Source: Beroe forskalii
Lineage: Eukaryota > Ctenophora > Nuda > Beroida > Beroidae
Assembly: GCA_011033025.1 (NCBI GenBank)
Contig: WFMF01000320.1
Location: 1 to 64,000, forward strand
Length of the DNA stretch: 64,000 nucleotides
Direction: 5' to 3'
Positions 13,111 to 49,709 of this stretch are shown piece by piece. Both the position numbers and the translations under genes were made by a program. The notes under the pieces are model-generated. The model did not search any database. It was not told the origin of the DNA and worked only from the letters and a program-made list of their open reading frames with translations. Within the stretch, counting starts at the first letter, position 1; each line of letters starts with the position of its first letter.

Positions 13111-13389
13111 ATAGTTCGACGATTAGTCTCAGTTGTGCTAAACCACGTGACTTTTGTTCCGTTTTTGTTCCGCAGGATGATGTCAATTCTGACAACTGAT
13201 ACTCATACTGGACAATTTTGTTTTGATCACATTGATCCAGGCCAGAATCAATTTTTCGTAATCTGCTTCACTTACCTTTCAAAAGTCGGTACTCAGGGTA
13301 CTCGCGAGTACCGGGAAATTTTTTTGATCTACCGGGAAATTTTCTGAAAATATGAAATTTTCGAAAATTTTGAAAAGTCACAAAGCAAA

Positions 13390-13910
13390 GTGGCAACGAA
13401 TCTTCCCACTTCCCGGTAGTAAGGAATCTTCCCACTTCCCTGTGGCAACGAATCTTCCCACTTCCCGGTAGTAAGGAATCTTCCCACTTCCCAGTGGCGA
13501 CGAATCTTCCCACTTCCCAGTGGCAACGAATCCTCCCACTTCCCGGTAGTAAGGAATCTTCCTACTTCCCAGTGATAACGAATCTTCCAACTTCCCAGTG
13601 GGAACGAATCTTCCCACTTCCCGGTAGTAGGGAATCTTCCTACTTCCCTGTGGCAACGAATCTTCCCACTTCCCAATGGTTAGGAATCTTCCCAATTCCC
13701 AGTGGCAACGGATCTTCCCACTTCCCGGTAGTAAGGAATCTTCCCAATTCCCAGTGGGAACGAACCTTCCCACTTCCCAGTGGCAATGAACATTCCCAAT
13801 TTCCAGTGGCAAGGAATCTTCCCACTTCTTGGTACTAAGGAATCTTCTCACTTCCCAGTAACTAGGAATCATCCTAACTTCCAGTGGCAGCGAATTTTCC
13901 CAGACCCCAG
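13390..13910. repeat. Minisatellite inside Mutator-like copy A
   Basis: Imperfect units of about 29-30 bp alternate between 'gtggcaacgaatcttcccac' and 'ggtagtaaggaatcttcc' forms. Most frames stay open through the array, which gives spurious reading frames on both strands. Confidence 0.9.
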
Positions 13911-13939
13911 ATATAAAGTTTAGAGGAGCTTTGGATGCA

Positions 13940-14510
13940 AGTTTGATATATAATTAGGAGTTCGCCTGCTAGTTGCCTCAAAATTGACAGCAAAAATCCT
14001 AAGATAACGCTGTTTCTATCTGCTTAAAACGTCTGGCTTGCTGGAGGCTGCTGCCCCCAGACCCCTGCCCATAGCTGTTGGACTTAAGTTTATATCAGTT
14101 TTCCATGCTATTAGCTTCAAAATTGGCAGCAAAAATCCTAAGATAACGCTGTTATTATCTACTTAAAACGTCTGGCTTTCTGGGGGCTGCCGCCCCAAGT
14201 CCCCTGCTCATAACTGTTGAACTTACGTTTATATCAGTTTTCCATGCTATTAGTCTCAAAATTGGCAGCAGAAATCTTAAAAAGACGATGTTCCTATCTA
14301 CTTGAAACGTCTGGCTTGCTGGGGGCTGCCGCCCCCAGACCCCTGCTCACAACTGTTGGCATTACGTTTGCATCAGTTCTCCATGCTGCTAGCCTCAAAA
14401 TTGGCGGCTAAAATCGTAAGAAAACGATGTTCCTATCTACTTGAAACGTCTGGATGGCTGGGGGCTGCCGCCCCCAGACCCCTGCTTATAATTGCTGTTG
14501 GGCTTACGTT
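13940..14510. repeat. Tandem repeat of about 125 bp inside Mutator-like copy A
   Basis: Four to five units, each with 'ctatctacttgaaacgtctg', 'gctgggggctgccgccccca' and 'cctcaaaattggcagcaaaa'. The ggggctgccgcccc core is itself a small hairpin. The same array occurs at 33680-34190. Confidence 0.9.
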
Positions 14511-14689
14511 TATATCAGAGCTTCAGGATTTGTCCATGAATCATTCATATCTTGAATATGATGGAAAATATTTGCTCTCAATGGGCACTTCGCGAGCGAA
14601 GCGAGCGGTCCACAAAAAGCATAAAAATTTGATTTGGTGGGAAAAAATGTGGTGAGTACCGGGAAGAAAAATACTTTTGAAAGGTAATC

Positions 14690-18358: not shown

Positions 18359-18969
18359 ATGTCTCGTCTTCGCTCCTTTACCTGTCTCTTACTTATTACC
18401 CTGGCAACGTTAGAGGAATCGAGCAGTGCGGGACGCCTCAGTGAGAATGCAACAGGTATTGACAATGTCCCTGAGGAAACCAATAAGGACGATGATGTCA
18501 CTGTCAAAGAAGAGGAAGTGATAGAGCTCCGCATGCCGAATATTACAACGGAGGACCATGATCAGTACCTAGTTACCCCGATAAGAGTGGATTATCAGGA
18601 TGCCTATATCGTGGGCTATAATCCTAAGGTCTCAAGTATTTCCCTGTCTTTTCATTATTTAGCTGCCTATATTTGTGGACTTTTTTGACGAAAGCATTGA
18701 AACTTCGTCACGCATTCGAATTTTTATAGTCCTGAATATATGTCCTGACATATTATTATTGATCTATTCGGTTCATTAGATTCCCCATCTTAATTCCCAG
18801 GCTTGACATACTTAAAGAAATTGCCCCAGGCTTCTGCTGAGGCAGTTCACCACATCCTGATATATGGGTGCAGTGCCCCACACAGAGTAGACGAGCCCTA
18901 CTGGGTGGTAGGGGATATGGGAGGCATATGTGATTGGCAGGGCAACATTAGCACTATTCTGTGGGCATG
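18359..18969 (+). CDS. PHM-like copper monooxygenase, 5' exons 1-2
   Basis: Exon 1 (18359-18628) starts with ATG and a signal peptide (MSRLRSFTCLLLITLATLEE), then an acidic linker and ELRMPNITTEDHDQYLVTPI, the start of the peptidylglycine alpha-hydroxylating monooxygenase fold. Exon 2 (18830-18969) follows in phase 0 and gives GYNP|KASAEAVHHILIYGC, with the HH pair that binds the first copper. It continues to ILWAW and ends in phase 2. PHM hydroxylates the C-terminal glycine of peptide precursors in the secretory pathway using copper, ascorbate and oxygen. Related DBH-like enzymes share the fold, but the HH context and the LQVHY motif in the next exon fit PHM best. The next exon lies 10.4 kb away, across a repeat-filled intron. 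Confidence 0.85.
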
Positions 18970-19210
18970 GTAAGTCGAAAGTTTGACATGTTTGATGTTT
19001 CATCATTTTATTTATGTACCGACTATCTTTCCCCAGCAACCTATAGTATTACTGGGGGGGGGGGGGCAACCCCCTCACTTATGGCGGATATAAAAAATCG
19101 CCAATTGGGGGTTTAATTTTGGGGGGTTTAGGAGAATTGAGGGACTTAGTTCTGGGTTTCAGAACAACCTTATTAACTATAAATCTACAGTCACATGAAA
19201 GAAACAAGTA

Positions 19211-19714
19211 CCTTAGTACACTTAAGAACGGCACCACGTAATTTGCGCGCACTTTAAGATCGGCGCACTTAATTAGTGCGGTTTTTTATGAGATCAAAAA
19301 CGATGTGTAAATATGAATAAAATTTGAAATTTTCCTCTTGATTGCGAGACATCATATTTAATATTTATAGGACCAGCAATATACAATTTTGCAATTATGG
19401 CAAGAAACAAATTTTCAACAGTAATAAGTTGTAGTACTACAGTACAGAAGTGCTGTAGTTTGGACCGTGCATATCTCAGAATGACAACATAATAATTTCA
19501 TTCTTTAAACTATTGAAGTTTTAGCTGAAGGTCATGATTCATTAATTCATGCCCGAAAAAAGCCAAAATCGGAAAAAAACCGCAAAAGTCATAAAATTGT
19601 TCACTTAATTAGCATACACTTAATTTTACGCGCACTTAATTACTGTACACTTAATTGGTGCGTTTTTTTCCAAACCGCACTAATTAAGTGACGCCGTTCT
19701 TAAGTGTACTAAGG
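19211..19714 (+). mobile_element. Tc1/mariner-like short element, copy A
   Basis: 504 bp with perfect 22-bp terminal inverted repeats, ccttagtacacttaagaacg-gc, flanked by TA on both sides (19209-19210 and 19715-19716). TA target duplication fits the Tc1/mariner superfamily. Internal subterminal repeats 'cacttaatta' recur. No transposase. A nearly identical copy in the opposite orientation lies at 54839-55343. Confidence 0.85.
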
Positions 19715-19734
19715 TAACTGATATTTTGTCAAAA

Positions 19735-20330
19735 TTGAGTTATATATACTAGTCGGTTCCCGTCCTACGGACGGCGAATGATGGCAGCCGCATGAGCTAA
19801 CGGCCACATGTCCCTTTGACAGTGATTTGACCGTGCGAGTTTGGAGGGGAAAATTCGAAACTTTAATTTCTGCGGAAAAAAGCTTCCCACGCCCCCAACG
19901 GTAACCCAGTATTGCCGACAATATTCTCAAAACCTTTACTCATCATAAGTAACTCCATAGCGAAGGAATTTCGAAAAAATTCGAAACTTTATTTTTTGCG
20001 AAAAGAAGGGCGCGGCCTCCCACGCCCCTCAGGGTGACCCAATAATTCGGACAAAATTCTCAAAATTTTTATTCATCATAAGGAACTCGATGACGAAGGA
20101 ATTTTGGAAAAATTCGAAAGTTTATTTTTTTTTCCAAAAAAAAGGGCGTGGCCTCCCGCGTTCCTCAGGGTGACCCAATAATTCGGACAAAATTCTCAAA
20201 ATTTTTATTCATCATAAGGAACTCGATGGCGAATGAATTTTGAAAAAATATTCGAAAGTTTAATTTTTGCGAAAAAAAGGGCGTGGACCCCCAATCCCCT
20301 CAGTTTGGCCGAAAAATTATCTCGGTATTT
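19735..20330. repeat. Tandem repeat of about 130 bp
   Basis: Three to four imperfect units containing 'gggcgtggcctcccacgccc', 'ctcagggtgacccaataatt' and 'attcatcataaggaactcga'. The unit diverges toward both ends. No coding capacity. Confidence 0.8.
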
Positions 20331-20505
20331 TTCTAATTTATTATTAATACTCCAGTAGCTAGCCAAAGTTGAGTAGGCCTTTCGAGGTCCAGAGAATTTC
20401 TCATCGGAATTTGTTAGTTCAAATGATAAAAATCAACTTTGAGGGGAGTAGAAATTTTCAAATAGTGGCGAACAGGTGACCACGCCCACTTTTTGTCATT
20501 TAATT

Positions 20506-21908
20506 GACACGCGTATCCAAAAATTCATATCTCGGGCTAGGAAGGTCGTAGAGACTTGATCTTTAGCTCAAACGAATCGCAGTGGCCACGTTTATATTAG
20601 ACTTGTTAACAAACATATGGCCTAAAATGCTCCTGAACCGAGTTACAGGCCAAAAAGCATTTTGAGCTGATGCGATGGCTCAAAATTGATAATTTGTTCA
20701 TATTTTGGGCTAGGAAGGTCGTAAAGACTTCGTTCATGGCTCAAAAGAACCGCAATTGGCATGTTTATATACAACTTGTGAATAAACATATGCCCTGAAA
20801 TGCTCAGAAACTAAGTTATAGGCCAAAAACTGATTTTTCGGCATTATCGCTGTGAAATATTTGGCAAAAATTAGTTGCAGAATCCATAGTTTGATGTGGA
20901 AACCAAAATTTTTACCGTCGAAATCTTCTTGAAACATCCCTTGTGTGATAAAGAGGGATTTTGGGGGTCTGAAATAGTCAGAATGGCTATGTTGAGCAAT
21001 TAAGCAACTGGATTAAACCCCCATTTAATTGACACGCTTGACCAAAAATTCATATCTCAGGCCAGGAACGTCGTAGAGACTTGTTTTTGGGCTCAAACGA
21101 ATCACGATGGCCATGTTTATGTTATACTTGTTGACAAACATATGCCCTAAAATGCTCCTGAACCAAGTTACAGGCCAAAAAGCATTTTGAGCTGATGCGA
21201 TGGCTCAAAATTGATAATTTTTCATATTTTGGGCTAGGAAGGTCGTAGAGACTTCGTTCATTGTTCAAAAGAACCGCAATTGGCATGTTTATATACAACT
21301 TGTGAATAAACATATGCCCTAAAATGCTCAGAAACTAAGTTATAGGCCAAAAACTAAGTTATAGGCCAAAAACTGATAAATCGCTGTGAAATATTTGGCA
21401 AAAATGAATGCATAATCCATGTTTCGATCTGCAAACCGATAATTTGCCCTTCGAAATGTACTTAAAAGATCACCCCCGTGACGAAAAAAAGATTATTGGG
21501 GTCTAAATTTTGGTTTGCAGATCGAAATATGGATTCTGCATTCATTTTTTGCCAAATATTTCACAGCAATAAAGCCAAAAAATTAGTTTTTGGCCTATAA
21601 CTTAGTTTCTGGGCATTTTAGGGCATATGTTTATTCACAAGTTATATATAAACATGCCCATTGCGGTTCTTTTGAGCTTTAAACGAAGTTTCTACGACCT
21701 TCCTAGCCAAAAACATGAACAAATTATCAATTTGGAGCCATCGCATCAGCTCAGAATGCTTTTTGGCCTGTAACTCGGTTCAGGAGCATTTTAGGCCATA
21801 TGTTTGTCAACAAGTCTAATATAAACATGGCCATTGCGATTCGTTTGGGCCCAACATCAAGTCTCTACGACCTTCCTGGCCCGAGATATGAATTTTTGGA
21901 TACACGTG
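20506..21908. mobile_element. Fold-back element of 1.4 kb abutting the minisatellite
   Basis: Left-end text cacgcgtatccaaaaattca and tatctcgggctaggaaggtc is mirrored at the right end as cgaccttcctggcccgaga and tgaatttttggatacacgtg. The left half repeats a 'ctaggaaggtcgtagagact' module three times, and the right half carries it once or twice in reverse. Mirrored 'aaaccaaaa/ttttggttt' words meet near 21490. The right end stops exactly where the 15-bp array starts. Confidence 0.75.
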
Positions 21909-24900
21909 GTAAACTGTCGCAGGGTAAACTGTCGCAGGGTAAACTGTCGCAGGGTAAACTGACGCAGGGTAAACTTTCGCAGGGTAAACTGTCGCAAGGT
22001 AAACTGTCACGGGTTAAACTTTCGCGGGGGTAAACTGTCGCAGGGTAAACTGTCGCAGGTTAAACTGTCGCAGGGTAAACTGTCGCAGGGTAAACTGTCG
22101 CAGGGTAAACTGACGCAGGGTAAACTTTCGTAGGGTAAACTGTCGCAGGGTAAACTGTCACGGGTTAAACTTTCGCGGGGGTAAACTGTCGCAGGGTAAA
22201 CTCTCGCAGGGTAAACTGTCGCAGGTTAAACTGTCGCAGGTAAATTGTCGCTGGGTAAACTGTCGCAGGGTAAACTTTCGCAGGGTAAACTCAAAACTGT
22301 CGCGGGGTAAACTGTCGCAGGGTAAACTGTCGCAGGGTAAACTTTCGCAGGATAATATGGCGCAGGGTAAACTGTCGCAGGTTGAACTGTCGCAGGGTAA
22401 ACTGTCGCAGGGTAAACTGTCGCAGGGTAAACTGTCGCGGGGTAAACTGTCGCAGGGTAAACTTTTGCAGGGTAAACTGTCACAGGGTAAACTGTCGCAG
22501 GGTAAACTGTCACAGGGTAAACTCACTAAACTGTCGCAGGGTAAACTGTCGCAGGGTAAACTGTCGCAGGGTAAACTGTCGCAGGGTAAACTGTCGCAGG
22601 GTAAACTGTCGCAGGGTAAACTGTCGCAGGGTAAACTGTCGCGGGGTAAACTGTTGCAAGGTAAACTGTCGCAGGGTAAACTGTCACAGGGTAAACTCAC
22701 TTAACTGTCGCAGGGTAAACTGTCGCTGGGTAATTTGTCACAGGGTAAACTCACTAAACTGTCGCAGAGTAAACTGTCGCAGGGTAAACTGTCGCAGGGT
22801 AAACTGTCGCAGGGTAAACTGTCGCGGGGTAAACTGTCGCAGGGTAAACTTTTGCAGGGTAAACTGTCAGGGTAAACTGTCGCAGGGTAAACTGTCACAG
22901 GGTAAACTCACTAAACTGTCGCAGGGTAAACTGTCGCAGGGTAAACTGTCGCAGGGTAAACTGTCGCAGGGTAAACTGTCACAGGGTAAACTCACTTAAC
23001 TGTCGCAGGGTAAACTGTCGCAGGGTAAACTGTTGCAGGGTAAACTGTCGCAGGGTAAACTGTCGCAGGGTAAACTGTCGCGGGTAAACTGTTGCGGGGT
23101 AAACTGTCGCAGAGTAAACTGTCGCAGGGTAAACTGTCACAGGGTAAACTGTCGCAGGGTAAACCGTCGCAGGGTAAACTCTCGCGGGGTAAACTGTCGC
23201 AGGGTAAACTGTCGCAGGGTAAACTGTCGCAGGGCAAACTGTCGCAGGGTAAAATGTCGCGGGGTAAAATGTCGCAGGGTAAACTGTCGCAGGGTAAACT
23301 GTCGCAACTCGCAGGGTAAACTGTTGCATAGTGAACTGTCGCAGGTAAACTGTCGCAGGGTAGACTGTCACAGGGTAACATGTCGCAGGGTAAACTGATG
23401 CAGGGTAAACTGTCGCAGGTAAACTGTCGCAGGGTAAACTCCCAGGGTAAACTGTCGCAGGGTAAACTGTCGTAGGGTAAACTGTCGCAGGTAAATTGTC
23501 GCTGGGTAAACTGTCGCAGGGTAAACTGTCACAGGGTAAACTGTCGCGGGGTAAACTGTCGCAGGGTAAACTTTCGCAGGGTAAACTGTCGCAGGGTAAA
23601 CTGTCGCAGGGTAAACTGTCGCAGGGTAAACTGTCGCAGGGTAAACTGTCGCAGGGTAAACTGTCACAGGGTAAACTGTCGCAGGGTTAACTCACGAAAC
23701 TGTCGCAAGGTAAACTGTCGCAGGGTAAACTGTCGCAGGGTAAACTGTCACAGGGTAAACTGTCGCAGGGTAAACTGTCGCAGGGTAAACTGGCACAGGG
23801 TAAACTGTCGCAGGGTAAACTCACGAAACTGTTGCAGGGTGAACTGTCCCAGGGTAAACTGTCTTGGGGTAAACTGTCTTGGGGTAAACTGTCTTGGGGT
23901 AAACTGTCGCAGGGTAAACTGTCGCAGGGTAAACTGTCGCAGGGTAAACTGTCGCAGGGCCAAACTGTCACAGGGTAAACTGTCGCAGGGTAAACTGTCG
24001 CAGGATAAACTCACCAAACTGTCGCTGGGTAAACTTTCGCAGGGTAAACAGTCGCAGGGTAAACTTTTGCAGGGTAAACTCACTAAACTGTCGCAGGGTA
24101 AACTGTCGCAGGGTAAACTGTCGCAGGTAAACTGTCGCAGGGTAAACTGTCGCAGGGTAAACTGTCGCAGGGTCAAGTGTCGTAGGGCCAAGTTTCGCAG
24201 GGTTAACTGTCGCAGGGTAAACTGTCTTGGGGTAAACTGTCGCAGGGTAAACTGTCGCAGGGTAAACTGTCGCAGGGTAAACTGTCGCAGGATAAACTCA
24301 CTAAACTGTCGCAGAGTAAACTGTCGCAGGGTAAACTGTCGCAGGGTAAACTGTCGCAGGGTAAACTGTCGCGGGGTAAACTGTCGCAGGGTAAACTTTT
24401 GCAGGGTAAACTGTCAGGGTAAACTGTCGCAGGGTAAACTGTCACAGGGTAAACTCACTAAACTGTCGCAGGGTAAACTGTCGCAGGGTAAACTGTCGCA
24501 GGGTAAACTGTCGCAGGGTAAACTGTCACAGGGTAAACTCACTTAACTGTCGCAGGGTAAACTGTCGCAGGGTAAACTGTCGCGGGTAAACTGTTGCGGG
24601 GTAAACTGTCGCAGAGTAAACTGTCGCAGGGTAAACTGTCACAGGGTAAACTGTCGCAGGGTAAACCGTCGCAGGGTAAACTCTCGCGGGGTAAACTGTC
24701 GCAGGGTAAACTGTCGCAGGGTAAACTGTCGCAGGGCAAACTGTCGCAGGGTAAAATGTCGCGGGGTAAACTGTCGCGGGGTAAACTGTCTTGGGTTAAA
24801 CTGTCTTGGGGTAAACTTTCGCAGGGTAAAATGTCGCAGGGTAAACTGTCGCAGGGTAAACTGTCGCAACTCGCAGGGTAAACTGTTGCATAGTGAACTG

Positions 24901-27900
24901 TCGCAGGTAAACTGTCGCAGGGTAAACTGTCGCAGGGTAAACTGTCGCAGGGTAAACTGTTGCATGGTAAACTGTCGCGGGGTAAACTGTCGCAGGGTAA
25001 ACTGTTGCAGGGTAAACTGTTGCAGGGTAAACTGTCGCAGGGTAAACTGTCACAGGGTAAACTGTCGCAGGGTAAACTGTCGCAGGGTAAACTGTCACAG
25101 GGTAAACTCACTAAACTGTTGCAGGGTGAACTGTCCCAGGGTAAACTGTCGCAGGGTAAACTGTCGCAGGGTAAACTGTCGCAGGGTAAACTGTCGCATG
25201 GTAAACTGTCGCAGCGTAAACTGTCGCAGGGTAAACTGTCACAGGGTAAACTGTCGCAGGGTTAACTCACGAAACTGTCGCAAGGTAAACTGTCGCAGGG
25301 TAAACTGTCGCAGGGTAAACTGTCACAGGGTAAACTGTCGCAGGGTAAACTGTCGCAGGGTAAACTGTCACAGGGTAAACTGTCGCAGGGTAAACTCACG
25401 AAACTGTTGCAGGGTGAACTGTCCCAGGGTAAACTGTCTTGGGGTAAACTGTCTTGGGGTAAACTGTCTTGGGGTAAACTGTCTTGGGGTAAACTGTCGC
25501 AGGGTAAACTGTCGCAGGGTAAACTGTCGCAGGGTAAACTGTCGCAGGGTAAACTGTCACAGGGTAAACTGTCGCAGGGTAAACTGTCGCAGGATAAACT
25601 CACCAAACTGTCGCTGGGTAAACTTTCGCAGGGTAAACAGTCGCAGGGTAAACTTTTGCAGGGTAAACTCACTAAACTGTCGCAGGGTAAACTGTCGCAG
25701 GGTAAACTGTCGCAGGTAAACTGTCGCAGGGTAAACTGTCGCAGGGTAAACTGTCGCAGGGTCAAGTGTCGTAGGGCCAAGTTTCGCAGGGTTAACTGTC
25801 GCAGGGTAAACTGTCTTGGGGTAAACTGTCGCAGGGTAAACTGTCGCAGGGTAAACTGTCGCAGGGTAAACTGTCGCAGGATAAACTCACTAAACTGTCG
25901 CAGGGTAAACTGTCGCAGGGTAAACTGTCGCAGCGTAAACCGTTGCGGGGTAAACTGTCGGAGGGTAAACTGTCACAGGGTAAACTGTCACAGGGTAAAC
26001 TGTCGCAGGGTAAACTGTCGCAGGGTAAACTCACTAAACTGTCGCAGGGTCAACTGTCGAAGGGTAAACTGTCGCAGGGTAAACTGTCGCAGGGTAAACT
26101 GTCGCAGGATAAACTCACCAAACTGTCGCTGGGTAAACTTTCGCAGGGTAAACAGTCGCAGGGTAAACTTTTGCAGGGTAAACTCACTAAACTGTTGCAG
26201 GGTAAACTGTCGCAGGTAAACTGTCGCAGGGTAAACTGTCGCAGGGTAAACTGTCGCAGGGTCAGGTGTCGTAGGGCCAAGTTTCGCAGGGTTAACTGTC
26301 GCAGGGTAAACTGTCTTGGGGTAAACTGTCGCAGGGTAAACTGTCGCAGGGTAAACTGTCGCAGGGTAAACTGTCGCAGGGCAAACTGTCGCAGGGTAAA
26401 ATGTCGCGGGGTAAACTGTCGCGGGGTAAACTGTCTTGGGTTAAACTGTCTTGGGGTAAACTTTCGCAGGGTAAAATGTCGCAGGGTAAACTGTCGCAGG
26501 GTAAACTGTCGCAACTCGCAGGGTAAACTGTTGCATAGTGAACTGTCGCAGGTAAACTGTCGCAGGGTAAACTGTCGCAGGGTAAACTGTCGCAGGGTAA
26601 ACTGTTGCATGGTAAACTGTCGCGGGGTAAACTGTCGCAGGGTAAACTGTTGCAGGGTAAACTGTTGCAGGGTAAACTGTCGCAGGGTAAACTGTCACAG
26701 GGTAAACTGTCGCAGGGTAAACTGTCGCAGGGTAAACTGTCACAGGGTAAACTCACTAAACTGTTGCAGGGTGAACTGTCCCAGGGTAAACTGTCGCAGG
26801 GTAAACTGTCGCAGGGTAAACTGTCGCAGGGTAAACTGTCGCATGGTAAACTGTCGCAGCGTAAACTGTCGCAGGGTAAACTGTCACAGGGTAAACTGTC
26901 GCAGGGTTAACTCACGAAACTGTCGCAAGGGTAAACTGTCGCAGGGTAAACTGTCGCAGGGTAAACTGTCACAGGGTAAACTGTCGCAGGGTAAACTGTC
27001 GCAGGGTAAACTGTCACAGGGTAAACTGTCGCAGGGTAAACTCACGAAACTGTTGCAGGGTGAACTGTCCCAGGGTAAACTGTCTTGGGGTAAACTGTCT
27101 TGGGGTAAACTGTCGCAGGGTAAACTGTCGCAGGGTAAACTGTCGCAGGGTAAACTGTCGCAGGGTAAACTGTCGCAGGGTAAACTGTCACAGGGTAAAC
27201 TGTCGCAGGGTAAACTGTCGCAGGATAGACTCACCAAACTGTCGCTGGGTAAACTTTCGCAGGGTAAACAGTCGCAGGGTAAACTTTTGCAGGGTAAACT
27301 CACTAAACTGTCGCAGGGTAAACTGTCGCAGGGTAAACTGTCGCAGGTAAACTGTCGCAGGGTAAACTGTCGCAGGGTAAACTGTCGCAGGGTCAAGTGT
27401 CGTAGGGCCAAGTTTCGCAGGGTTAACTGTCGCAGGGTAAACTGTCTTGGGGTAAACTGTCGCAGGGTAAACTGTCGCAGGGTAAACTGTCGCAGGGTAA
27501 ACTGTCGCAGGATAAACTCACTAAACTGTCGCAGGGTAAACTGTCGCAGGGTAAACTGTCGCAGCGTAAACCGTTGCGGGGTAAACTGTCGGAGGGTAAA
27601 CTGTCACAGGGTAAACTGTCACAGGGTAAACTGTCGCAGGGTAAACTGTCGCAGGGTAAACTCACTAAACTGTCGCAGGGTCAACTGTCGCAGGGTAAAC
27701 AGTCGCAGGGTAAACTGTCGCAGGATAAACTCACCAAACTGTCGCTGGGTAAACTTTCGCAGGGTAAACAGTCGCAGGGTAAACTTTTGCAGGGTAAACT
27801 CACTAAACTGTCGCAGGGTAAACTGTCGCAGGTAAACTGTCGCAGGGTAAACTGTCGCAGGGTAAACTGTCGCAGGGTCAAGTGTCGTAGGGCCAAGTTT

Positions 27901-29110
27901 CGCAGGGTTAACTGTCGCAGGGTAAACTGTCTTGGGGTAAACTGTCGCAGGGTAAACTGTCGCAGGGTAAACTGTCGCAGGGTAAACTGTCGCAGGATAA
28001 ACTCACCAAACTGTCGCTGGGTAAACTGTCGCAGGGTAAACTGTCGCAGCGTAAACCGTTGCGGGGTAAACTGTCGGAGGGTAAACTGTCACAGGGTAAA
28101 CTGTCACAGGGTAAACTGTCGCAGGGTAAACTGTCGCAGGGTAAACTCACTAAACTGTCGCAGGGTAAACTGTCGCAGGGTAAACTGTCGCAGGGTAAAC
28201 TGTCACAGGGTAAAATCACTAAACTGTCGCAGGGTAAGCTGTCTTGGGGTAAACTGTCTTGGGGTGAACTGTCGCAGGGTAAACTGTCGCAGGGTAAACT
28301 GTCGCAGGGTAAACTGTCGCAGGGTAAACTGATCGCAGGGTAAACTTTCGCAGGGTAAACTGTCGCGGGGTAAAATTTTGCGGGGTAAACTGTCGCGGGG
28401 TAAACTGTGGCAGGGTAAATGTCGCGGGGTAAACTGTCGCAGGGTAAACTGTCGCGGGGTAAACTGTCTTGGGGTAAACTGTCGCAGGGTAAACTGTCGC
28501 AGGGTAAACTGTCGCAGGGTAAACTGTCGCGGGGTAAACTGTCGCAGGGAAAACTGTTGCAGTGTAATCTTTCGCAGGGTAAAATGTCGCAGGGTAAACT
28601 GTCGCAGGGTAAACTGTCGCGGGGGTAAACTGTCGCAGGGTTAACTGTCGCAGGGTAGACTGTCGCAGGGTAAACTGTCGCAGGGTAAACTGTCGCAGGG
28701 TAAACTGTCACAGGGTAAACTGTTGCAGGGTAAACTGTCACAGGGTTAACTCGCTAAACTGTCGCAGGGTGAACTGTCCCAGGGTAAGCTGTCGCGGGGT
28801 AAGCTGTCGCGGGGTAAACTGTCGCAGGGTAAACTGTCGCAGGGTAAACTGTCGCAGGGTAAACTTTCGCGGGGTAAACTGTCGCGGGGAAAACTGTTGC
28901 AGGTTAAACTGTCACAGGGTTAACTCGCTAAACTGTCGCAGGGTAAACTGTCACAGGGTAAACTCACTAAACTCTCGCAGGGTAAACTGTCTTGGGGTAA
29001 ACTGTCGCAGGGTAAACTGTCGAAGGGTAAACTGTCGCGGGGTAAACTGTCGCATGGAAAACTGTCGCAGGGTAAACTGTCGCAGGGTAAACTGTCGCAG
29101 GGTAAACTGT
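21909..29110. repeat. Giant minisatellite, 15-bp unit, about 480 copies
   Basis: The consensus unit is ctgtcgcagggtaaa. It runs for 7.2 kb with few interruptions. Common variants are ctgtcacagg, ctgtcttggg, ctgtcgcggg, cttttgcagg and ctcactaaa. Because the unit is a multiple of three and five of its six frames lack a stop, long open frames (up to 630 codons) appear on both strands with translations such as LSQGK, CRRVN, LPCDS, YPATV and FTLRQ. These are not genes. The array lies inside an intron of the PHM-like gene. Higher-order copies are listed separately. Confidence 0.98.
23299..27930. repeat. Higher-order repeats of about 1.6 kb within the 15-bp array
   Basis: Marker variants recur at regular offsets. 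The text 'ctgtcgcaactcgcagggta' followed by 'aactgttgcatagtgaactg' occurs near 23305, 24864 and 26508. The text 'gggtcaagtgtcgtagggcc' occurs near 24171, 25760, 26262, 27391 and 27873. The spacings of about 1,570-1,640 bp, with insertions of about 490 bp, show block duplication on top of single-unit slippage. Confidence 0.8.
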
Positions 29111-29244
29111 CCTAGGCATTAACTGATAAGCAGTGTGATTAGTTGAGTGTATTGGTACTGACACTTCTATTGCACTGATAATAAGGCGTGATATGATGGT
29201 AATGTAGCAGTAGAAGTAGAAAAACATTGGGGCCTGGTTGGGGG

Positions 29245-29318
29245 CTGCGCTGGTTAGTTGGTTGAGTGGATAAGATCTGTACCTGTCATTCATGACATCC
29301 AGGGTTCGAGTCTCGGGG
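29245..29318 (+). ncRNA. tRNA-like sequence with A- and B-box motifs
   Basis: The text ggttagttggttgagtggat resembles a Pol III A box, and ggttcgagtctc, about 45 bp downstream, matches the B box. The anticodon arm does not fold into a standard tRNA, so this is more likely a tRNA pseudogene or the head of a tRNA-derived SINE than a working tRNA. It lies 135 bp after the minisatellite. Confidence 0.45.
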
Positions 29319-29407
29319 AAATCCTCACTCATAATAGGATGTAGCTCGTTAATAATGACTTTAACTTGATATTTCTTCTATCCTTAATTGACTCATTTCA
29401 TTTCCAG

Positions 29408-30023
29408 GGCGCTGGATGCACCTGATTTTACGATGCCAGAAAACGTTGCTTTCCACATTGGAAGCAATGCCAACATAAACTTCCTACTTCTCCAAGTACA
29501 CTACAAGTACAAGATCGATAGCGGTGAATCTATATCTTTAATAATACAAAGGAAAGAGGAGGAATTGCTCAGTGCCCTCCGCCCTGTATGAATAACTGCA
29601 CCAAACGCCGCAATTTTTTGCAGGGTGATAGAAAAATGGTATTCGGTGTCGACGATCATTTAAAAATTCGCATTTAGGCTTTACTTTTTCTCGTAATTAA
29701 CGTCCAATGTTGGAAAAAGCGTCGCAAAAACAATGTTGAGAATTGTTCTTAATTCATAAGCTGTGTGCGTTGGTTGGTGACATGACGGAAGCTGCAAGTG
29801 CACGTGCACATCACTGTAACGAGGCAGTGCCATTTCTTTGTTCGCTCTCTTTGCATTAGACTGCGCCTGGACAAAGTGGCACACGGATTACGGATCTATG
29901 CCCGTTTCAACTGTTAAAAATACTTATTACGTTATGGATGGAATTTTCGAGTTCGGCCCGGGAAAAGTTTACGACAGAACAGTTATCAAAATGAATTACA
30001 AGAAAGGTGCCAAAAATACAAAG
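29408..30023 (+). CDS. PHM-like copper monooxygenase, exons 3-4
   Basis: Exon 3 (29408-29585) completes the split Trp codon and gives ALDAPDFTMPENVAFHIG and NINFLLLQVHYKYKIDSG. The LQVHY histidine is the third ligand of the first copper site, so all three are present together with the HH in exon 2. Exon 4 (about 29877-30023, donor AAG|gtatga) gives TYYVMDGIFEFGPGKVYDRT, which aligns with the PHM segment PY-AGIYxxG...IPP, though more weakly. The second copper site (HTH and the Met ligand) and any PAL lyase domain are not seen, so further exons lie downstream and are not recognised, or the gene is incomplete. Confidence 0.72.
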
Positions 30024-31035
30024 GTATGACCATTATTCTGTTGTTTAATAAGTTCATGATTTAAACCAATTTAAGGAGAACAGTAGAAAACTTTTGTACA
30101 AAGATTTATGCGGTAAAACTATTTCACGTCATGCCAACTGTCAATGTAGATTGCACATTTATTGTATGTACGTGGTTTTTGAAGCCACATGCGCGCACAA
30201 CCGTGCGCGCATTTTGAAAAGTTATATTTGCACATTTTGACCCATGAATTTGCAAAATTTTACTCGATAGTGTCGCGCGGCATTTGACATTGAATGTGCG
30301 TGCCATTGACCGCGACCACAGACAATATGATTTTATTGATTTTGGTTTCATTTTTTAAATAATTTAGATGTGACCCTATTGAAAAATAGAAAAATTGTAA
30401 GCAAAAGTGTGAAGTCCACTCGGGCAAAATCGCAAACAAATTACCTTAAGCAATTTAGCGGATTTTTGAAGGTTTTTAAGTATATAAATAAATAAAGAAT
30501 ATAATAAAGGAGCACATGAGTCAAAAAGAGCAAAATTAAATGTTGAAATAGGACCTAGCCACTGTGGGGGCTAAAATGGTGAATTATCCACCACTAGCCC
30601 CCTGTAGGTCCCACTTAAGAATTAGCCTCCTACCAGTTTCAGGGCTGTGCAGCGGGGCAGGAAAGTGGGGAAACATCCCTGGGGCCCCAAACCAGAAAGG
30701 GCCTCTTTCTGACTTTGAAATGTTGAATTTATATCCACTGTGCAGGTTTCATGAAGATGTTACAGCAACATCAAATTTTGATCCAGAGTTTCTGAATAAA
30801 CATAGTTTGTGGTATCTCTTACCATCTTACCATGTGCAGATGTATAGATAGATGTATGGTGATTTGCTTTTATTGGAAACAAGAATAAGGTTCACTTACA
30901 CTGGGCTCACAATTAGGAGCATATTAGATAAATTAATTAATTAATTACACTGCAGAGCTATAGGTACAGCATTCTACATTGCAGCTTTCAAGGGACTAAT
31001 AAAATCGAGTAAGATAAGCTGTTTCCATCATACCT
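30024..31035. other. Non-coding, nothing clearly recognised
   Basis: No conserved coding block is seen; missing PHM exons could be hidden here. Words 'ggggccccaaaccagaaagg' (30680) and 'gggcccggtttgggacttcc' (31498) look like fragments of one dispersed repeat. Confidence 0.35.
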
Positions 31036-31037
31036 AA

Positions 31038-31176
31038 CAGGGGCGTGTCGAACTCATATGTCTTTGGCTTTTTCCATCGCGGCAGGGTAATTGTCTGTGA
31101 CTCACTGCCTGTTAATTACAGGCAGTAAGCTCTTTTTTCCCCGCGCATGAAAGCCAACCGAGTTCAACACGCCCTG
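31038..31176. mobile_element. Short fold-back element
   Basis: Inverted ends: left aggggcgtgtcgaactc with ttggctttttccatcgcgg, right ccgcgcatgaaagccaa with gagttcaacacgccct. A central palindrome ctgcctgttaattacaggcag lies between them. About 140 bp, with no coding capacity. Confidence 0.7.
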
Positions 31177-31700
31177 GTATTTTACATGAGTTTTAAACTT
31201 ACAACACAACACATATTAAATTAACTAACTGAGGATAGCATGGCTCTGCTCCTCGGAGATCCTGAAGATGATTCATAGCTTTTCATAAAGTCAATCTTAA
31301 AGTTATGTTTCGAAACTGTCAGTTGATATTGTGGAGTAGTTATTTGGCTTGAATCATAATTGTTACTTTCAATGAAAAACAGCAGTTTTATCAAATACAT
31401 TTTACATCTATGGATTTGAATTTAAAGATATTTGTTCTTTCGAAATCTGAATTGTCAAAAAATAGGATGTTATTTGAAAATCTAGGAAGTAGGAAGGGCC
31501 CGGTTTGGGACTTCCCCGGGGCCTCAAGATATCACTGCATGGCCCTGACCAGTTTAACCCCTACCAGTTTGATAATAATGCATTTTCGTGGAAGCTATAG
31601 TGGTAGGAATAGAATCAAATAGGGCTGATTGTACCTAAAAAGACAAATTTATGGCGAGCCTCTGCAACAATGGATTCAAATCTAAAACAGCAAGACTCTT
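31177..31700. other. Non-coding, nothing clearly recognised
   Basis: Apart from the possible repeat fragment near 31495-31580, I see nothing here. Confidence 0.35.
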
Positions 31701-31939: not shown

Positions 31940-32059
31940 TTACCTTTCAAAAGTCGGTACTCCGGGTACTCGCGAGTACCGGGAAATTTTTTTGATCTTC
32001 CGGGAAATTTTCTGAAAATCTGAAATTTTCGAAAATTTTGATAAGTCACAAACCAAAGT

Positions 32060-33620
32060 GGCAACGAATCTTCCCACTTCCCGGTAGTAAGGAATCTTCC
32101 CACTTCCCTGTGGCAACGATTCTTCCTACTTCCCGGTAGTACTAAGGAATCTTCCCACTTCCCTGTGGCAACGAATCCTTTCACTTCCCGGTAGTGAGGA
32201 ATCGTCCTACTTCCCAGTGATAACGAATCTTCCAACTTCCCAGTGGGAACGAACCTTCCACTTCCCGGTAGTAAGGAATCTTCCTACTTCCCTGTGGCAA
32301 CAGATCTTCCCACTTCCAATGGTTAGGAATCTTCCCAATTCCCAGTGGCAACAGATCTTCCCACTTCCCGGTTGTAAGGAATCTTCCTACTTCCCTGTGG
32401 CAACGAATATTCCCACTTCCCGGTAGTAAGGAATCTTTCTACTTCCCTGTGGCAACGAATCTTCCCACTTCCCGGTAGCAAGGAATCTTCCCAATTCCCA
32501 GTGGCAACAAATCTTCCCACTTCCCGATAGTAAGGAATCTTCCTACTTCCCTGTGGCAACGAATCTTCCCACTTCCCAATGGTTAGGAATCTTCCCAATT
32601 CCCAGTGGCAACGGATCTTCCCACTTCCCGGTAGTAAGGAATCTTCCTACTTCCCTGTGGCAACGAATCTTCCCACTTCCCGGTAGCAAGGAATCTTCCC
32701 AATTCCCAGTGGCAACGAATCTTTCCACTTCCCGGTAGTACTAAGGAATTATCCCACTTCCCTGTGGCAACGAATCCTCCCTCTTCCCGGTAGTGAGGAA
32801 TCGTCCTACTTCCCAGTGATAATGAATCTTCCAACTTCCCAGTTGGAACGAATCTTCCCACTTCCCGGTAGTAAGGAATCTTCCTACTTCCCTGTGGCAA
32901 CGAATCTTCCCACTTCCCAATGGTTAGGAATCTTCCCAATTCCCAGTGGCAACGGATCTTCCCACTTCCCGGTAGTAAGGAATCTTCCTACTTCCCTGTG
33001 GCAACGAATCTTCCCACTTCCCGGTAGTAAGGAATCTTCCTACTTCCCTGTGGCAACGAATCTTCCCACTTCCCGGTAGCAAGGAATCTTCCCAATTCCC
33101 AGTGGCAAAGAATCTTCCCACTTCCCGATAGTAAGGAATCTTCCTACTTCCCTGTGGCAACGAATCTTCCCACTTCCCAATGGTTAGGAATCTTCCCAAT
33201 TCCCAGTGGCAACGGATCTTCCCACTTCCCGGTAGTAAGGAATCTTCCTACTTCCCTGTGGCAACGAATCTTCCCACTTCCCGGTAGCAAGGAATCTTCC
33301 CAATTCCCAGTGGCAACGAATCTTTCCACTTCCCGGTAGTAAGGAATCTTCCCAATTCCCAGTGGCAACGAATCTTCCCACTTCCCGATAGTAAAGAATC
33401 TTCCTACTTCCCAGTGGCAACGAATCTTCCCACTTCCCAGTGGTAAGGTATCTTCCCCCTTCCCGGTAGTGAGGAATCTTCCCACTTCCCAGTGGCAATG
33501 AACATTCCCAATTTCCAGTGGCAAGGAATCTTCCCACCTCTTGGTACTTAAAGGAATCTTCTCACTTGCCAGTAACTAGGAATCATCCTAACTTCCGGTG
33601 GCAGCGAATTTTCCCAGACC
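32060..33620. repeat. Minisatellite inside Mutator-like copy B
   Basis: About 1.56 kb of 29-30 bp units, three times the length of the array in copy A. Blocks of several units (for example 'cttcccaatggttaggaatc' plus neighbours) recur at roughly 250-300 bp, showing higher-order duplication. Confidence 0.9.
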
Positions 33621-33679
33621 CCAGATATAAACTATAAAGTTTAATAGAGCTTGATATATAATTAGGAGTTCGCCATGCT

Positions 33680-34190
33680 AGTTGCCTCAAAATTGACAGC
33701 AAAAATCCTAAGATAACGATGTTTCTATCTACTTAAAACGTCTGGCTTGCTGGGGGCTGCTGCCCCCAGACTCCTGCACATAGCCGTTGGACTTAAGTTT
33801 ATATCAGTTTTCCTTGCTATTAGCCTCAAAATTGGCAGCAAAAATCCTAAGATAAAGCTGATTCTATCTACTTGAAACGTCTGGCTCGCTGGGGGCTGCC
33901 GCCTGGGGGCTGATCATGCTATTAGTCTCAAAATTCGCAGCAGAAATCTTAAAAAGACGATGTTCCTATCTACTTGAAACGTCTGGCTTGCTGGGGGCTG
34001 CCGCCCCAGACCCTTGCTCACAACTGTTGGAATTACGTTTGCATCAGTTCTCCATGCTGCTAGCCTCAAAATTGGCGGCTAAAATCGTAAGAAAACGATG
34101 TTCCTATCTACTTGAAACGTCTGGATGGCTGGGGGCTGCCGCCCCCAGACCCCTGCTTATAATTGCTGTTGGGTTTATATCAGAGCATCA
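33680..34190. repeat. Tandem repeat of about 125 bp inside Mutator-like copy B
   Basis: Four units matching 13940-14510, with the gctgggggctgccgccccca core and 'ctatctacttgaaacgtctg'. Confidence 0.85.
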
Positions 34191-37175: not shown

Positions 37176-38024
37176 CGAATAATCCAATGGACTGCCCAGT
37201 AACGTTCCTGGATGAAAAGCTTCCCTCCAGAGGTGCCTTTGGAGGTGATCTAGATATGAACGATAACCATGTGAAAATGACAGCACACGCTCTTGAAGCC
37301 ATGGGAGATATCTACCTTTGGGAAGATCCTGGACTCTGTATTCAATAGCGCGACAGTGCTTGATAAAGTGGACGGGATCCTGCTTCACTCACTTGTGAAG
37401 GAAATGTTGGTGGTGAGCCCCTCTGAGCGGATAACCTGCGATGAAATCATAAACAGCCATCCGTACGTCACAGTTCAACAGAGGGGGAATGGTTTGGGGA
37501 AGGCTGAAGCGAGGATCGATTACATCAAGGACATGTACGATACGCTACAGGCTGAGAATAAGGGAGTTCCCAATTGGAGGCAAAACATCGAACTGAGCGT
37601 CATGTCCGTGTTCAGTAAGTTCATTCCGTGGAACGGGCCTCCGAGCTCCTTCGGCGACCGGATATTCGAGGAAATGAACAGACGAGCGCAGAAGAAGTAC
37701 GATGCGAACTCGTTCGTTGATCTGTTGCGATTAGTGAGGAATCTGCGGGAACACCCGATTGAGGGCAATAAACTGAAACCACTCCGGGATGAAATAGCGG
37801 GCGATGCGTTCGGTCAGAGCTACCCGTGTATCATACCCTTGGTTTACATATTCGTGGAGTGTCAGGAATCTTCAGACATGCTTCTGGGGCTGCTGTCAGA
37901 GGTCATGTTCGAAGCAACGGCCGGGAAGGAGCAACCGAAGAAAAAGAAGAAGAAAAAACAGAAGAAGAAGAAATTCAGGGCTAATCAGGAAGTTGAAATA
38001 GACGAATTATATTGCCGTGAATGA
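37155..38024 (+). CDS. Kinase-KEN protein (IRE1/RNase L type), 3' end, with a frameshift
   Basis: The first part gives MTAHALEAMGDIY. A +1 or -2 shift at about 37312-37317 continues it as FGKILDSVF, restoring the DIYxFG pattern of a kinase F-helix. Then follow LLHSLVKEMLVVSPSERI and TCDEIINSHPYV (kinase subdomain XI) and a KEN-type RNase domain with NWRQNIELSVMSVFSKF, SFVDLLRLVRNLREHP and YPCIIPLVYIFVEC. The RNxxEH pattern is closer to RNase L than to IRE1 as I recall them. A lysine-rich tail and a stop at 38024 follow. Known relatives are dimerising kinase-like RNases that cut RNA in stress or defence signalling. Upstream kinase and sensor exons are not recognised and the 5' exon boundary is unclear. 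The frameshift may be an assembly error or a real lesion. An AATAAA lies at 38196. Confidence 0.78.
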
Positions 38025-43314: not shown

Positions 43315-44900
43315 TCAGTTCAATTTGATATAAACAACTGGCCTTAATAAACTGTATGAGGATAACTCGTACAACCCCCACTTAAAAATTTTAGCACCAA
43401 ACGCATCAGGTTGAACCTTCCGCACTGGGACCCCTTGCCAAGTTACAGGAAATTCAAATCCATTGTTACCAAGGATAGTAAAGTGCATGTTAGTTGCAGA
43501 AAAACACTCCCCGTGGAAATGTAGATCAGCCGGGTAATCCTCGGGTTTTGTCAGAAGTTAAATATCGAATGTCTGGTCTCCATCCTCACCAAGGCCTGTA
43601 GACCTTAAAATAAATCCACACTTGCCACTTCTATCACAGCAGAGTTCTGGAGGCTTATCATTAAAAATGAATGTAAAATCTTTATCTTCCTCGAAAAATT
43701 GCAGTTGACTATATGCCGAACTTGAACATACCCGCACATAGCCATCTGAAGTTGTAAGATTAACTGCTCCACTATCCTTCAGACTGTTAACTAAACTTTT
43801 CAAATTATTACTGCCCCGGGAATGGGATATCTTGGTGATATAAGGTAAATATAACGGAGACAAATTCTGCTCGGATATAGCTTTACCTAATGCAGCTATA
43901 AACTTTTCAGTGTTGATTTGTCTACCTTTGGTTTGAATCCAAAAATATGCAGCATCAAACATCATTAGACTAGTGAATTCAATCTGCGATGCCATTAGAG
44001 ATTCAACGAAATCAGAAAAATTATCATCTTGCTGCAAAATATCTCCATTCTGAAAAAGATTGGGAAGCTTGAACTTTGTAACTGCAACATTGTCATTTAA
44101 AATTTCTTGTGGATAATGAGAAGCATAATTCTTAAACAGTTGAAGCACTAATCCATGATCTTCCTCCGACGACATTTTGACAGTTTCAAGGCAGTTAATT
44201 AGTTTCAAATACAAAGTATTATTTTTCTTAGAACATGGGGAAACAGTGATATTTTTCAGCAAGTATCTGCTATTCGAATCAAGTTCATAACAATTTCTTT
44301 CAAAATTAGCAATCAGTGATTCTAATAAAATAGCCCCCTGATCTCCAGTTATTTTCATCGCAAAATTCAATTCAACCTGTGTTCTCGCTGAAAAATCACA
44401 TAGAAATTCCCTGAGAAAATAAGTGTCACTCTTTGTGATTTCCTGAGAAAATTTCTCGATTGCCATATCAATAAGTCTCATCTTCTTCAGATTAGTTGAA
44501 ACCCATAATGCCTCTTTGACAACAAACAGTTGATCTTCATAAGCACCCAAATCAACAGAATCGAGAAATTCAAAACATTTGTCAACCAGCCACGACACCT
44601 CAAACACAGTGGACATCTTGTTCATTCCCCCGAAGTTATCTTTAGAAATCTTCTGAGGTTCTCCAGAATAGCAGGATTCTATGAAGTTCTGCACCACTTC
44701 TCTACTGAAGTCCTGGACATCTAGAGAAGTTTGAAGGAGCTCAGTAGTGAGCTTGTCAATGACAGGACTGTTGTAAGACACAATGACAGAGTTAGCAGTA
44801 ATTGCTTCACCGTCAGAGACAAAAACTTTAGGTTACCATGGGAGGGGGATCCGAGGTACTTCATCCCAAAATCCATGGGAACTTGCACTTTTGGGGCCAT
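43315..44900 (-). pseudogene. BTB-domain gene, tandem copy 1, broken
   Basis: Homologous over its whole length to the intact copies at 45698 and 48089. Two lesions are visible. Near 44820 a T is gained and two bases are lost (ctaaagtttttgtctctg against ctaaagttttgtctctctg in copy 2), shifting the frame after codon 25. At 43558-43560 a lysine codon has become TAA. Downstream of the stop the frame stays open for 80 more codons to the expected end at 43315. Few lesions mean recent inactivation, or one error plus one real mutation. Protein features are those given for copy 2. Confidence 0.85.
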
Positions 44901-45697
44901 TGCTACCTGGTTAACAGGAGATAATAATTGCATGAAAAATCCAAAATACACTATAACCGTGGTAGCACGACCTAGTTTACGCTTTTACACTACATCATGC
45001 CCAGGCGTTGGGCAGCCTATTATGGTTTTTCAAGGCACTAATTCGAATTGATATAATATGATATTATTATTGTCAATCAAAATTTCTCAGACAAATCACC
45101 AACCACTGAAATAGCTTCAACAATGAACGGTATTAAAAGAAGATAATATGGGATCAATTAAATTCACGTGGTTCAATTGACTGTAAAACTGTGATTCCAA
45201 AAATCTATACCTAAACAAAAGTTATTAAAAAGTTAAAAGTAGTTCCGAGCTTATAAGCATAAAATATCCAAGTGTTTATATGATTCCACATTACATATCA
45301 AAATATGAAATAGTGTATGTGAAAAGAATGATTTTTTTAATTACAACACTACTTTATACAATGTATCAAGTAGTGTTGTATGTAAAAATCATGATTGTAT
45401 AATATACACTCAAATTTGAGGTTGATGACGGAGTATTCCCGATGTCAGTTCATTAAATCATATATTTTATTTATTAAAATCAACTTCCTTTATTTTGTGG
45501 CAGAGAATATAATCATCATTAATCAGTAAGAAGAATGAATTGCAGCTTTACAGAAGAACAGAAAAGCAGTAATAAGTAGTCAATGGAGCTAAGAATTAAA
45601 GGATATTATAAAAGCTTTCATTACTTACCTAAAATACCAATCAAATGTTGTTTCCCTAAAAATCAATACTAACGAAAATTGACATCTCTCTTCATTC

Positions 45698-47281
45698 CTA
45701 TCCATGTCGCTTAAATTTGATATAAACAACTGGCCTTAAATTCAAAGAGGAAAACTCCCAACAACCCCACTCAAAACTTCTACCACCAGTCCAAGAAGTT
45801 AGAGCCATCCGCACTGGGACCCTTTGCCAAGTTACAGGATATTCGAATCCATTGTTACTAGAGATAGTAAAGTGCATGTTAGTTGCAGAAAAATACTCCC
45901 CGTGGAAATGTATATCAGCCGGATAATCCTCGGGTTTTGTTAGAAGTTTGATATCGAATGTCTTGTCTCCATTTTTACCAAGGCCTGAGGACTTTAAAAT
46001 AAATCCACACTTTCCACTTCTATCACAGCAGAGTTCTGGAGGCTTTTCATCGAGAATGAATGTAAAATCATTATCCTCCTCGAAAAATTGAGTAGTTGTA
46101 TATTCTGAAATTGAGCATACCCGCACATAGCCATCTGAAGTTGTGAGATTAAATGATCCACTATCCTTCAGATTTTCAACAAATCTTTTCAAATTGTTAC
46201 TGCCACTGGATAGATTGGTGATATAAGGTAAATATAATGGAGACAAATTCTGTTCTGCTATAGCTTTACCCAATGCAATTTTAAATTCCTCAGCGTTGAT
46301 TGATCCATCTATAACAATCCAAAAAAATGCAGCATCAAACATCATAAGACTAGTAAATTCAATCTGCGATGCCATTAGAGATTCAACGAAATCAGAAAAA
46401 TTATCACTTTGATCCAAAATATCTCCATTCCGAAAAAGATTGGGAAGCTTGAACTTTGTAACTGCAACATTCTCATTTAAAATTTCTTTTGAATGACGAG
46501 AAGCATAATTTTTAAACAGTTGAAGCACTAATCCATGATCTTCCTCCGACGACATTTTGACAGTTTCAAGGCAGTTAATCAGTTTCAAATACAAAGTATT
46601 ATTTTTCTTGGAACATGGAGAAACATTGATATTTTTCAGCAAGTATCTGCTATTGGCATCAAGTTCATATGAATTTTTTTCAAAATTAGCAATCAATGAT
46701 TCTAATAAGGTAGCCTCTTGATCTCCAGCTATTTTCATGGCAAAATTCAATTCTACCTGTGTTCTTGCCGGAAAATCACATAAAAATTCCCTGAGAAAAT
46801 AAGTGTCACTTTTTGTAATTGCCTGAGAAAATTTCTTGATCGTCATATCAATTAGTCTCATTTTCTTCAGATTAGTTGAAACCCATAATGCCTCTTTGAC
46901 AACAAACAACTGATCTTCATAGGCACCCAAATCAACAGAATCGAGAAATTCAAAACATCTGTCAACCAGCCACGACACCTCAAACACAGTGGACATCTTG
47001 TTCATTCCCCGGAAGTTATCTTTAGAAATATTCTGAGGTTCTCCAGAATAGCAGGATTCTATGAAGTTCTGCACCACTTCTCTACTGAAGTCCTGGACAT
47101 CTAGAGAAGTTTGAAGGAGCTCAGTAGTGAGCTTGTCAATGACAGGACTGTTGTAAGACACAATGACAGAGTTAGCAGTAATTGCTTCACCGTCAGAGAG
47201 ACAAAACTTTAGGTTACCATGGGAGGGGGATCCGAGGTACTTCATCCCAAAATCCATGGGAACTTGCACTTTTGGGGCCAT
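45698..47281 (-). CDS. BTB-domain protein, tandem copy 2
   Basis: Single-exon gene of 527 codons; the start is the ATG giving MAPKVQVPMDFGMKYLG, shared by all three copies. Residues about 18-120 read as a BTB/POZ domain: HGNLKFCLSDGEAITANSVI (as in DVxF...F-AHK-VL), NSPVIDKL, then VVQNFIESCYSGE (as in F--LL-F-YTG) and LVDRCFEFL. Residues 120-230 look like a helical BACK-like region (YFLREFLCDF). The C-terminal 150 residues (GYVRVCSISEY, DRSGKCGFIL, HFHGEYFSATNMHFTISSNN) are unfamiliar and probably beta-rich. BTB proteins usually dimerise and many recruit cullin-3, but no Kelch, MATH or zinc-finger partner is present, so the role is unknown. The gene lacks introns. An upstream in-frame ATG at 47314 would add 11 residues. 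Confidence 0.85.
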   Translation of the reverse strand: MAPKVQVPMDFGMKYLGSPSHGNLKFCLSDGEAITANSVIVSYNSPVIDKLTTELLQTSLDVQDFSREVVQNFIESCYSGEPQNISKDNFRGMNKMSTVFEVSWLVDRCFEFLDSVDLGAYEDQLFVVKEALWVSTNLKKMRLIDMTIKKFSQAITKSDTYFLREFLCDFPARTQVELNFAMKIAGDQEATLLESLIANFEKNSYELDANSRYLLKNINVSPCSKKNNTLYLKLINCLETVKMSSEEDHGLVLQLFKNYASRHSKEILNENVAVTKFKLPNLFRNGDILDQSDNFSDFVESLMASQIEFTSLMMFDAAFFWIVIDGSINAEEFKIALGKAIAEQNLSPLYLPYITNLSSGSNNLKRFVENLKDSGSFNLTTSDGYVRVCSISEYTTTQFFEEDNDFTFILDEKPPELCCDRSGKCGFILKSSGLGKNGDKTFDIKLLTKPEDYPADIHFHGEYFSATNMHFTISSNNGFEYPVTWQRVPVRMALTSWTGGRSFEWGCWEFSSLNLRPVVYIKFKRHG

Positions 47282-48088
47282 TGCTACCTGGTTAACAGGA
47301 GATAATAAATGCATGAAAAATCAAAAATACACTATAACCGTGGTAGCACGACCTAGTTTACGCTTTTACACTGCATCATGCCCAGGCGTTGGGCAGCCTA
47401 TTATGGTTTTTCAAGGCACTAATTCGAATTGATATAATATGATTATGATTATATTATTATCAATCAAAATTTCTCAGACAAATCACCAACCACTGAAATA
47501 GCTTCAACAATGAACGGTATTAAAAGAAGATAATATGGGATCAATTAAATTCACGTGGTTCAATTGACTGTAAAACTGTGATTCAAAAAATCTATACCTA
47601 AACAAAAGTTATTAAAAAGTTAAAAGTAGTTCCGAGCTTATAAGCATAAAATATCCAAGCGTTTATATGATTCCACATTACATATCAAAATATGAAATAG
47701 TGTATGTGAAAAGAATGATTTTTTAATTACAACACTACTTTATACAATGTATCAAGTAGTGTTGTATGTAAAAATTATGATTGTATAATTTACACTAAAA
47801 TTTGAGGTTGATGACGGAGTATTCCCGATGTCAGTTCATTGAATCATATATGTTATTTATTAAAATCAACTTCCTTTATTTTGTGGAAGAGAATATAATC
47901 ATCATTAATCAGTAAGAAGAATGAATTGCAGCTGTACAGAAGAACAGAAAAGCAGTAATAGTCAATGGAGCTAAGAAGTAAAGGATATTATAAAAGCTTT
48001 CATTACTTACCTAAAATACCAATCAAATGTTGTTTCCCTAAAAATCACTACTAACGAAAATTGACATCTATCTTCATTCCTATCCATG

Positions 48089-49687: not shown

Positions 49688-49709
49688 TGCTATCTCAGTT
49701 AGTTAATGA

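Follow-up and report, generated by a model that had tools for sequence, protein, structure and literature searches.

The 7.2-kb tandem array described here is probably an intronic minisatellite of a dispersed 15-bp family, enlarged recently in blocks of about 1.5-1.65 kb within intron 2 of a PHM-type copper monooxygenase gene, one of several in this genome. The window (the whole 64-kb stretch of DNA that was analysed) lies on the contig here designated C382, and Tandem Repeats Finder places the array at 21908-29111 of its forward strand, with a length of 7,204 bp, a period of 15, 497.7 copies, a score of 9503 and the repeat unit GGTAAACTGTCGCAG. Wrap-around segmentation divides it into 498 units, of which 199 match GGTAAACTGTCGCAG exactly; 425 of the 7,198 aligned bases (5.9%) are substituted, and shorter units of 10 bp and 14 bp turn up repeatedly. 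The initial annotation was right that the array is real, but its 480 copies at 21909-29110 become, by both methods, about 498 units within the limits given above. Made up of short units in tandem, the array is a minisatellite, and chance is far from accounting for it. For the exact 30-base dimer, the 216-Mb genome gives 105 matches (100 forward and 5 reverse), with 100 in the 64-kb window alone and none for the backward control.

Exact copies of 597, 462, 353 and 306 bp recur inside the array at spacings of 1,645, 1,631, 1,589 and 3,220 bp. Because these internal copies are exact over lengths of up to 597 bp, they point to recent duplication of array blocks of about 1.6 kb (1.5-1.65 kb). Intronic minisatellites and VNTRs are, as a class, composed of short tandem units, show block duplications and lie in introns, and the window array resembles that class in all three respects. 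It differs from the class in being long (7.2 kb, 69% of its intron) and a member of a dispersed family, and variation in its length is only hinted at.

Exons and intron of the host gene

Exon 1 (18359-18628, forward strand, as are exons 2 and 3 and the intron between them) has a start methionine and a hydrophobic N-terminus that appears signal-peptide-like by eye, is open throughout, and ends AAG|GTCTCA; it is homologous to exon 1 of a paralogue on contig C468, with an identical donor position. Exon 2 (18830-18969) encodes VHHILIYGC, which contains two of the three Cu-H histidines, and ends at the donor GCATG|GTAAGT. Intron 2 (18970-29407) is followed by exon 3, which extends from 29408 to about 29521 and supplies the third Cu-H histidine, in LLQVHY. 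At the join between exons 2 and 3, ...GGGCATG|GTAAGT ... TTTCCAG|GGCGCTGGAT, a split tryptophan codon is restored, which agrees with the earlier claim that exons 1-2 and exon 3 join in phase; the claim that all three ligands of the first copper site are present also holds, the His-His pair being completed by the histidine of LLQVHY. Intron 2 is 10,438 bp long, and the array fills 7,204 bp of it, or 69%, close to the 70% of a 10.4-kb intron estimated before.

The exons proposed in the initial annotation are real, with adjusted limits: exon 2 starts at 18830, and the PHM homology of exon 3 ends near 29521. An exon 3 running to 29585, as had been proposed, is rejected on comparison of the window with contig C175 and with dispersed copies (13 of 15 copies were aligned, L045 and L049 being left out), since a dispersed repeat, probably a transposon, begins at about 29531 and accounts for the last 55 or so bases (29531-29585) of the exon as first drawn. 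This repeat covers 29531-29845 on the forward strand, its 3' limit being approximate. Past exon 3 the window frame enters the repeat and meets a stop at 29589-29591. Where C175 has GATAG|GT and C468 has GACAG|GT as the donor that follows exon 3, the window has GATAGCGGTGAA.

The window protein scores 62.1 bits against Pfam model PF01082 (Cu2_monooxygen; cut-off 30), and phmmer matches it to rat PHM with an E-value of about 5e-15, dopamine beta-hydroxylase being weaker at 0.0034. Both queries still held ten residues that the corrected model assigns to intron 1, and the alignment with rat PHM has a ten-residue gap exactly at those residues. VHHIL and LLQVHY both align with rat PHM. A match to PF01082 and the three Cu-H histidines, two of the marks of a PHM-type monooxygenase, are found together in the window gene. 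According to PMC6123673, the Cu-H ligands of PHM are H107/H108/H172, and both coppers are reportedly required, for substrate binding and for a competent conformation.

On contig C468, exons 1-3 follow one another as they do on C382, with the same splice phases, and intron 2 there is 979 bp long and free of the array. Comparison of the two loci gives dN 0.29 and dS 2.09 over 170 codons, and dN 0.20 and dS 2.18 over the 122 codons of the conserved part, for a dN/dS of 0.09-0.14 with dS near saturation and with both frames open. Because silent sites are near-saturated and the frames have stayed open, purifying selection has acted on exons 1-3 at both loci through most of the time since the two separated. 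Judged from sequence comparison, intron 2 is real. The shared exon order and phases, the purifying selection and the short, array-free intron 2 of C468 all support the earlier placement of the array within an intron of a PHM-type gene.

Second half of the gene and its broken assembly

In whole-genome searches, PF01082 has a single match, on C468; the splitting of genes into exons hides other loci from this search, the window's own exons included. PF03712 has five matches, on C175, C411 and C558, and none on C382. The window protein finds nine matches in the genome (three on C382, three on C468, two on C175 and one on C411), C382 and C468 being the only contigs to match exons 1-2, and a second-half peptide from C175 finds four, on C175 and C411 only, with nothing on C382. 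Only C411 has the middle exon entire; this exon is represented on C468 by a 17-residue stub (E 0.3), and was not found when searched for on C382 and C175. C175 has second-half exons near 179,536-179,366 and 175,940-175,815. The HTH and CNFYMMYY motifs of its second half are intact, and these exons adjoin a blended copy of the array locus; the HTH and Met motifs we take to be Cu-M ligands. A further PHM-type gene was detected on C558 with a rat PHM query (three matches below 1e-5 and one of 0.007 in 18 kb); in the 18 kb examined, no His-His exon of this gene turned up.

The window gene thus resembles rat PHM, or peptidylglycine alpha-amidating monooxygenase (1OPM and relatives), in its N-terminal domain and its Cu-H ligands, but differs in that searches with PF03712 and with the second-half peptide found no C-terminal Cu-M domain on C382, and in that the genome has another PHM-type gene. 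The initial annotation spoke of an enzyme needed to make amidated peptides; that description is not supported, with only the N-terminal copper domain found on C382 and the other gene of this type present on C558. PAM-like genes are described across metazoa, sponges included, in PMC6529398.

Two PHM-type paralogues, C382/C175 and C468/C411, both appear to be split over contigs that overlap around exon 3. The overlap of C468 and C411 has a first block of 799 matches, 4 mismatches and 3 gaps (1, 8 and 39 bases) and a second of 808 matches, 35 mismatches and 19 gaps, with the divergence at the start of the block; a 1.85-kb insert separates the two blocks on C411. It looks like one locus or two alleles. 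The simplest reading, from the sequences compared, is that each contig pair represents one gene, cut in assembly around repeats. A split enzyme encoded at two loci, in two paralogous pairs, is disfavoured, as each half is matched once and the C468/C411 overlap resembles one locus or two alleles. We infer that C175 carries the second half of the window gene, with the assembly broken around long tandem arrays, and that C382 shows the 5' half only.

On C175, as in the window, an array is followed by a SINE-like element, by exon 3 and by the dispersed repeat; next on C175 come a 32-bp minisatellite and the second-half exons. The stretch common to C382 and C175 is 90% identical, with 65 mismatches and 19 gap events, 16 of them single-base. 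The differences are clustered, 59 of 83 neighbours being three or fewer columns apart (random mean 26.7, maximum 38 in 1,000 trials), and some of the patches on C175 are 9-mers of the neighbouring 32-bp minisatellite. Within C175:181-184.7k, 10 of the 20 listed shared runs of at least 10 bases fall on one ascending chain that corresponds to window positions 29187-30048 and lies between array units, and the same window-downstream sequence recurs on C175, much cleaner, 2.05-2.13 kb later. The number of shared 10-mers in the blended stretch is 58, compared with 6-18 in 15 equal control stretches of C175. Elsewhere in the genome, the matches listed for the window's right flank (29798-31600) are confined to short pieces and to a dispersed repeat close to the end of the flank, and the blended pieces of C175 are not among them.

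This blend of array and downstream sequence in two registers is most likely an assembly artefact, because a read consensus formed in two registers would give such a pattern; we know of no natural process that gives one. C175 is probably not an independent second array locus, and its broken exon 3 is therefore weak evidence for a pseudogene. A second, older array locus with a decayed exon 3 was considered and rejected, given the clustering of differences, the mostly single-base gaps, the 9-mer patches, and the ordered pieces of window-downstream sequence inside the array. Counting against that rejection, mismatches outnumber gaps, which taken alone is also compatible with true divergence. The blend hints at variation in array length. 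Such variation had been predicted in the initial annotation, and the internal copies at 1.5-1.65 kb and the C175 registers 2.05-2.13 kb apart are consistent with it, but an assembly slip could give the same picture.

Amphioxus "mirages", as presented in PMC3087553, are minisatellites across exon-intron boundaries, and haplotype length differences and an aberrantly assembled case are reported there. The window array is, like those, a minisatellite at an intron; unlike mirages as so described, it touches no exon, starting 2.9 kb after exon 2 and ending 296 bp before exon 3, and its 15-bp unit spans no exon-intron boundary. The 32-bp minisatellite of C175 (C175:179,524-181,036) has a unit in which a 3' splice site is joined to the initial 19 bases of an exon from the second half of a PHM gene (CCCCCAG|GAAGAAGAAGACATGACCC), the exon start being placed by comparison with C411. 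It contains 42 core copies, a count made approximate by noise, is partly blended with other sequence, and is by its anatomy a mirage in the amphioxus sense.

The 15-bp family and neighbouring repeats

The 15-bp family occurs at no fewer than four further places, on C980, C201, C469 and C914 (with a second dimer pattern on C980 and a GCGG variant on all four); these searches used exact dimers only, and the family may be larger. Array sizes are 105 units on C980, 19 on C201, and 6+2 on each of C469 and C914, whose arrays lie within one larger duplicated block. Each of the five arrays, that of the window and the four others, terminates in ...GGTAAACTGTC or a variant close to it, a common end phase that amounts to four independent sites, C469 and C914 being related. 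A GATCC|GGGG start is found at C469/C914 and C201 and is absent from the window, and no target-site duplication was seen by eye around the family arrays.

On its left the window array abuts a palindromic dispersed element (20508-21908, left limit provisional) with arms at 20508-20930 and 21486-21908 that are 90% complementary, and matches to this element, partly overlapping one another, number at least 189 genome-wide. Pieces of this element, 50 bp in length, lie beside the 15-bp repeats on C980, and none were found in the 2.5-2.7 kb examined of each of C201, C469 and C914. Directly 3' of the array is the SINE-like dispersed element (29112-29370, forward strand), a copy of which on C329 has, by eye, a 14-bp direct repeat on both flanks.

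Other repeats and frames occur in the window. At 13389-14518 and again at 32058-34143, an identical 26-bp minisatellite is followed by the same repeat of about 139 bp, which makes this another minisatellite-bearing repeat. A 24/48-bp array lies at 58672-60982 within a stop-free frame of 939 aa, which is at most a putative coding frame. Three tandem, very similar long frames occupy 43558-49702 on the minus strand, and a BTB domain is present in the single frame that was scanned (45698-47320). The frame at 37281-38024 has a Ribonuc_2-5A domain, a domain found in IRE1 and RNase L.

Competing readings and significance

One idea is that of a mobile minisatellite, whose arrays would be inserted as units with fixed ends (...GATCC|GGGGTAAA and ...GGTAAACTGTC|) and then grow, here to 7.2 kb in the PHM intron, with a length differing by about 140 units between chromosomes; we consider this very unlikely. 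Exons 1-2 and the palindrome might have been wrongly joined, at the array, to an array and exon 3 from elsewhere, an assembly error to which we assign a low probability. On C175 other DNA stands to the left of the same kind of array and exon 3 (a dispersed repeat with at least 40 matches, itself included, among 1,250 candidates of which 40 were scored), and in both pairs, over the stretches compared, the contigs with N-terminal and C-terminal halves overlap around exon 3 and otherwise have dispersed repeats and a single 92-bp piece in common. Set against such a join, exons 1-2 of the window paralogue are matched once, as is an intact exon 3, they meet in phase, all three exons match C468 as a unit, and the C175 blend repeats the order of array, exon 3 and the sequence that follows as far as 30.05 kb. 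The join of palindrome and array is seen only on C382, a different dispersed repeat preceding the array on C175; this counts against the reading we favour, an intronic minisatellite enlarged in place, and the array may have been misjoined on its left side.

Unlikely, though deserving more weight, is the reading that the window gene keeps just the 5' part of a PHM gene, as a truncated copy that no longer makes a working enzyme. It comes into question because the donor after exon 3 is altered and no middle exon is found on C382 or C175, and it fits both the lack of PF03712 and second-half peptide matches on C382 and the frame that runs into a dispersed repeat and stops. Exons 1-3 are nevertheless open and constrained, though the constraint measured by dN/dS could predate truncation, and the second-half exons with intact motifs on C175 lie beside the blended copy of the locus. 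On another reading the array regulates the gene, the AG and GTAAAC of its units acting as decoys for splicing or as a brake whose strength depends on array length: the array has 294 occurrences of AGGGTAAAC, 380 of GTAAAC and 315 of GCAG, and most units contain AG plus GTAAAC. The 15-bp unit, however, has no pyrimidine tract, and the same family is found at four other places, and we regard such regulation as highly improbable.

On the favoured reading, an intronic minisatellite, the array would have been seeded from the dispersed 15-bp family and would have grown by unequal exchange or replication slippage in an intron tolerant of length, to be removed by normal splicing. It most likely would have no function of its own and no regulatory role. 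The exons of a conserved gene would thus have remained under selection as a dispersed minisatellite came to occupy the greater part of one of its introns. Arrays of this kind can both break an assembly and blend its sequences, and a gene can then look split in two. If variation in array length is confirmed, the locus would offer a natural test of the effect of a multi-kilobase intronic repeat on splicing.
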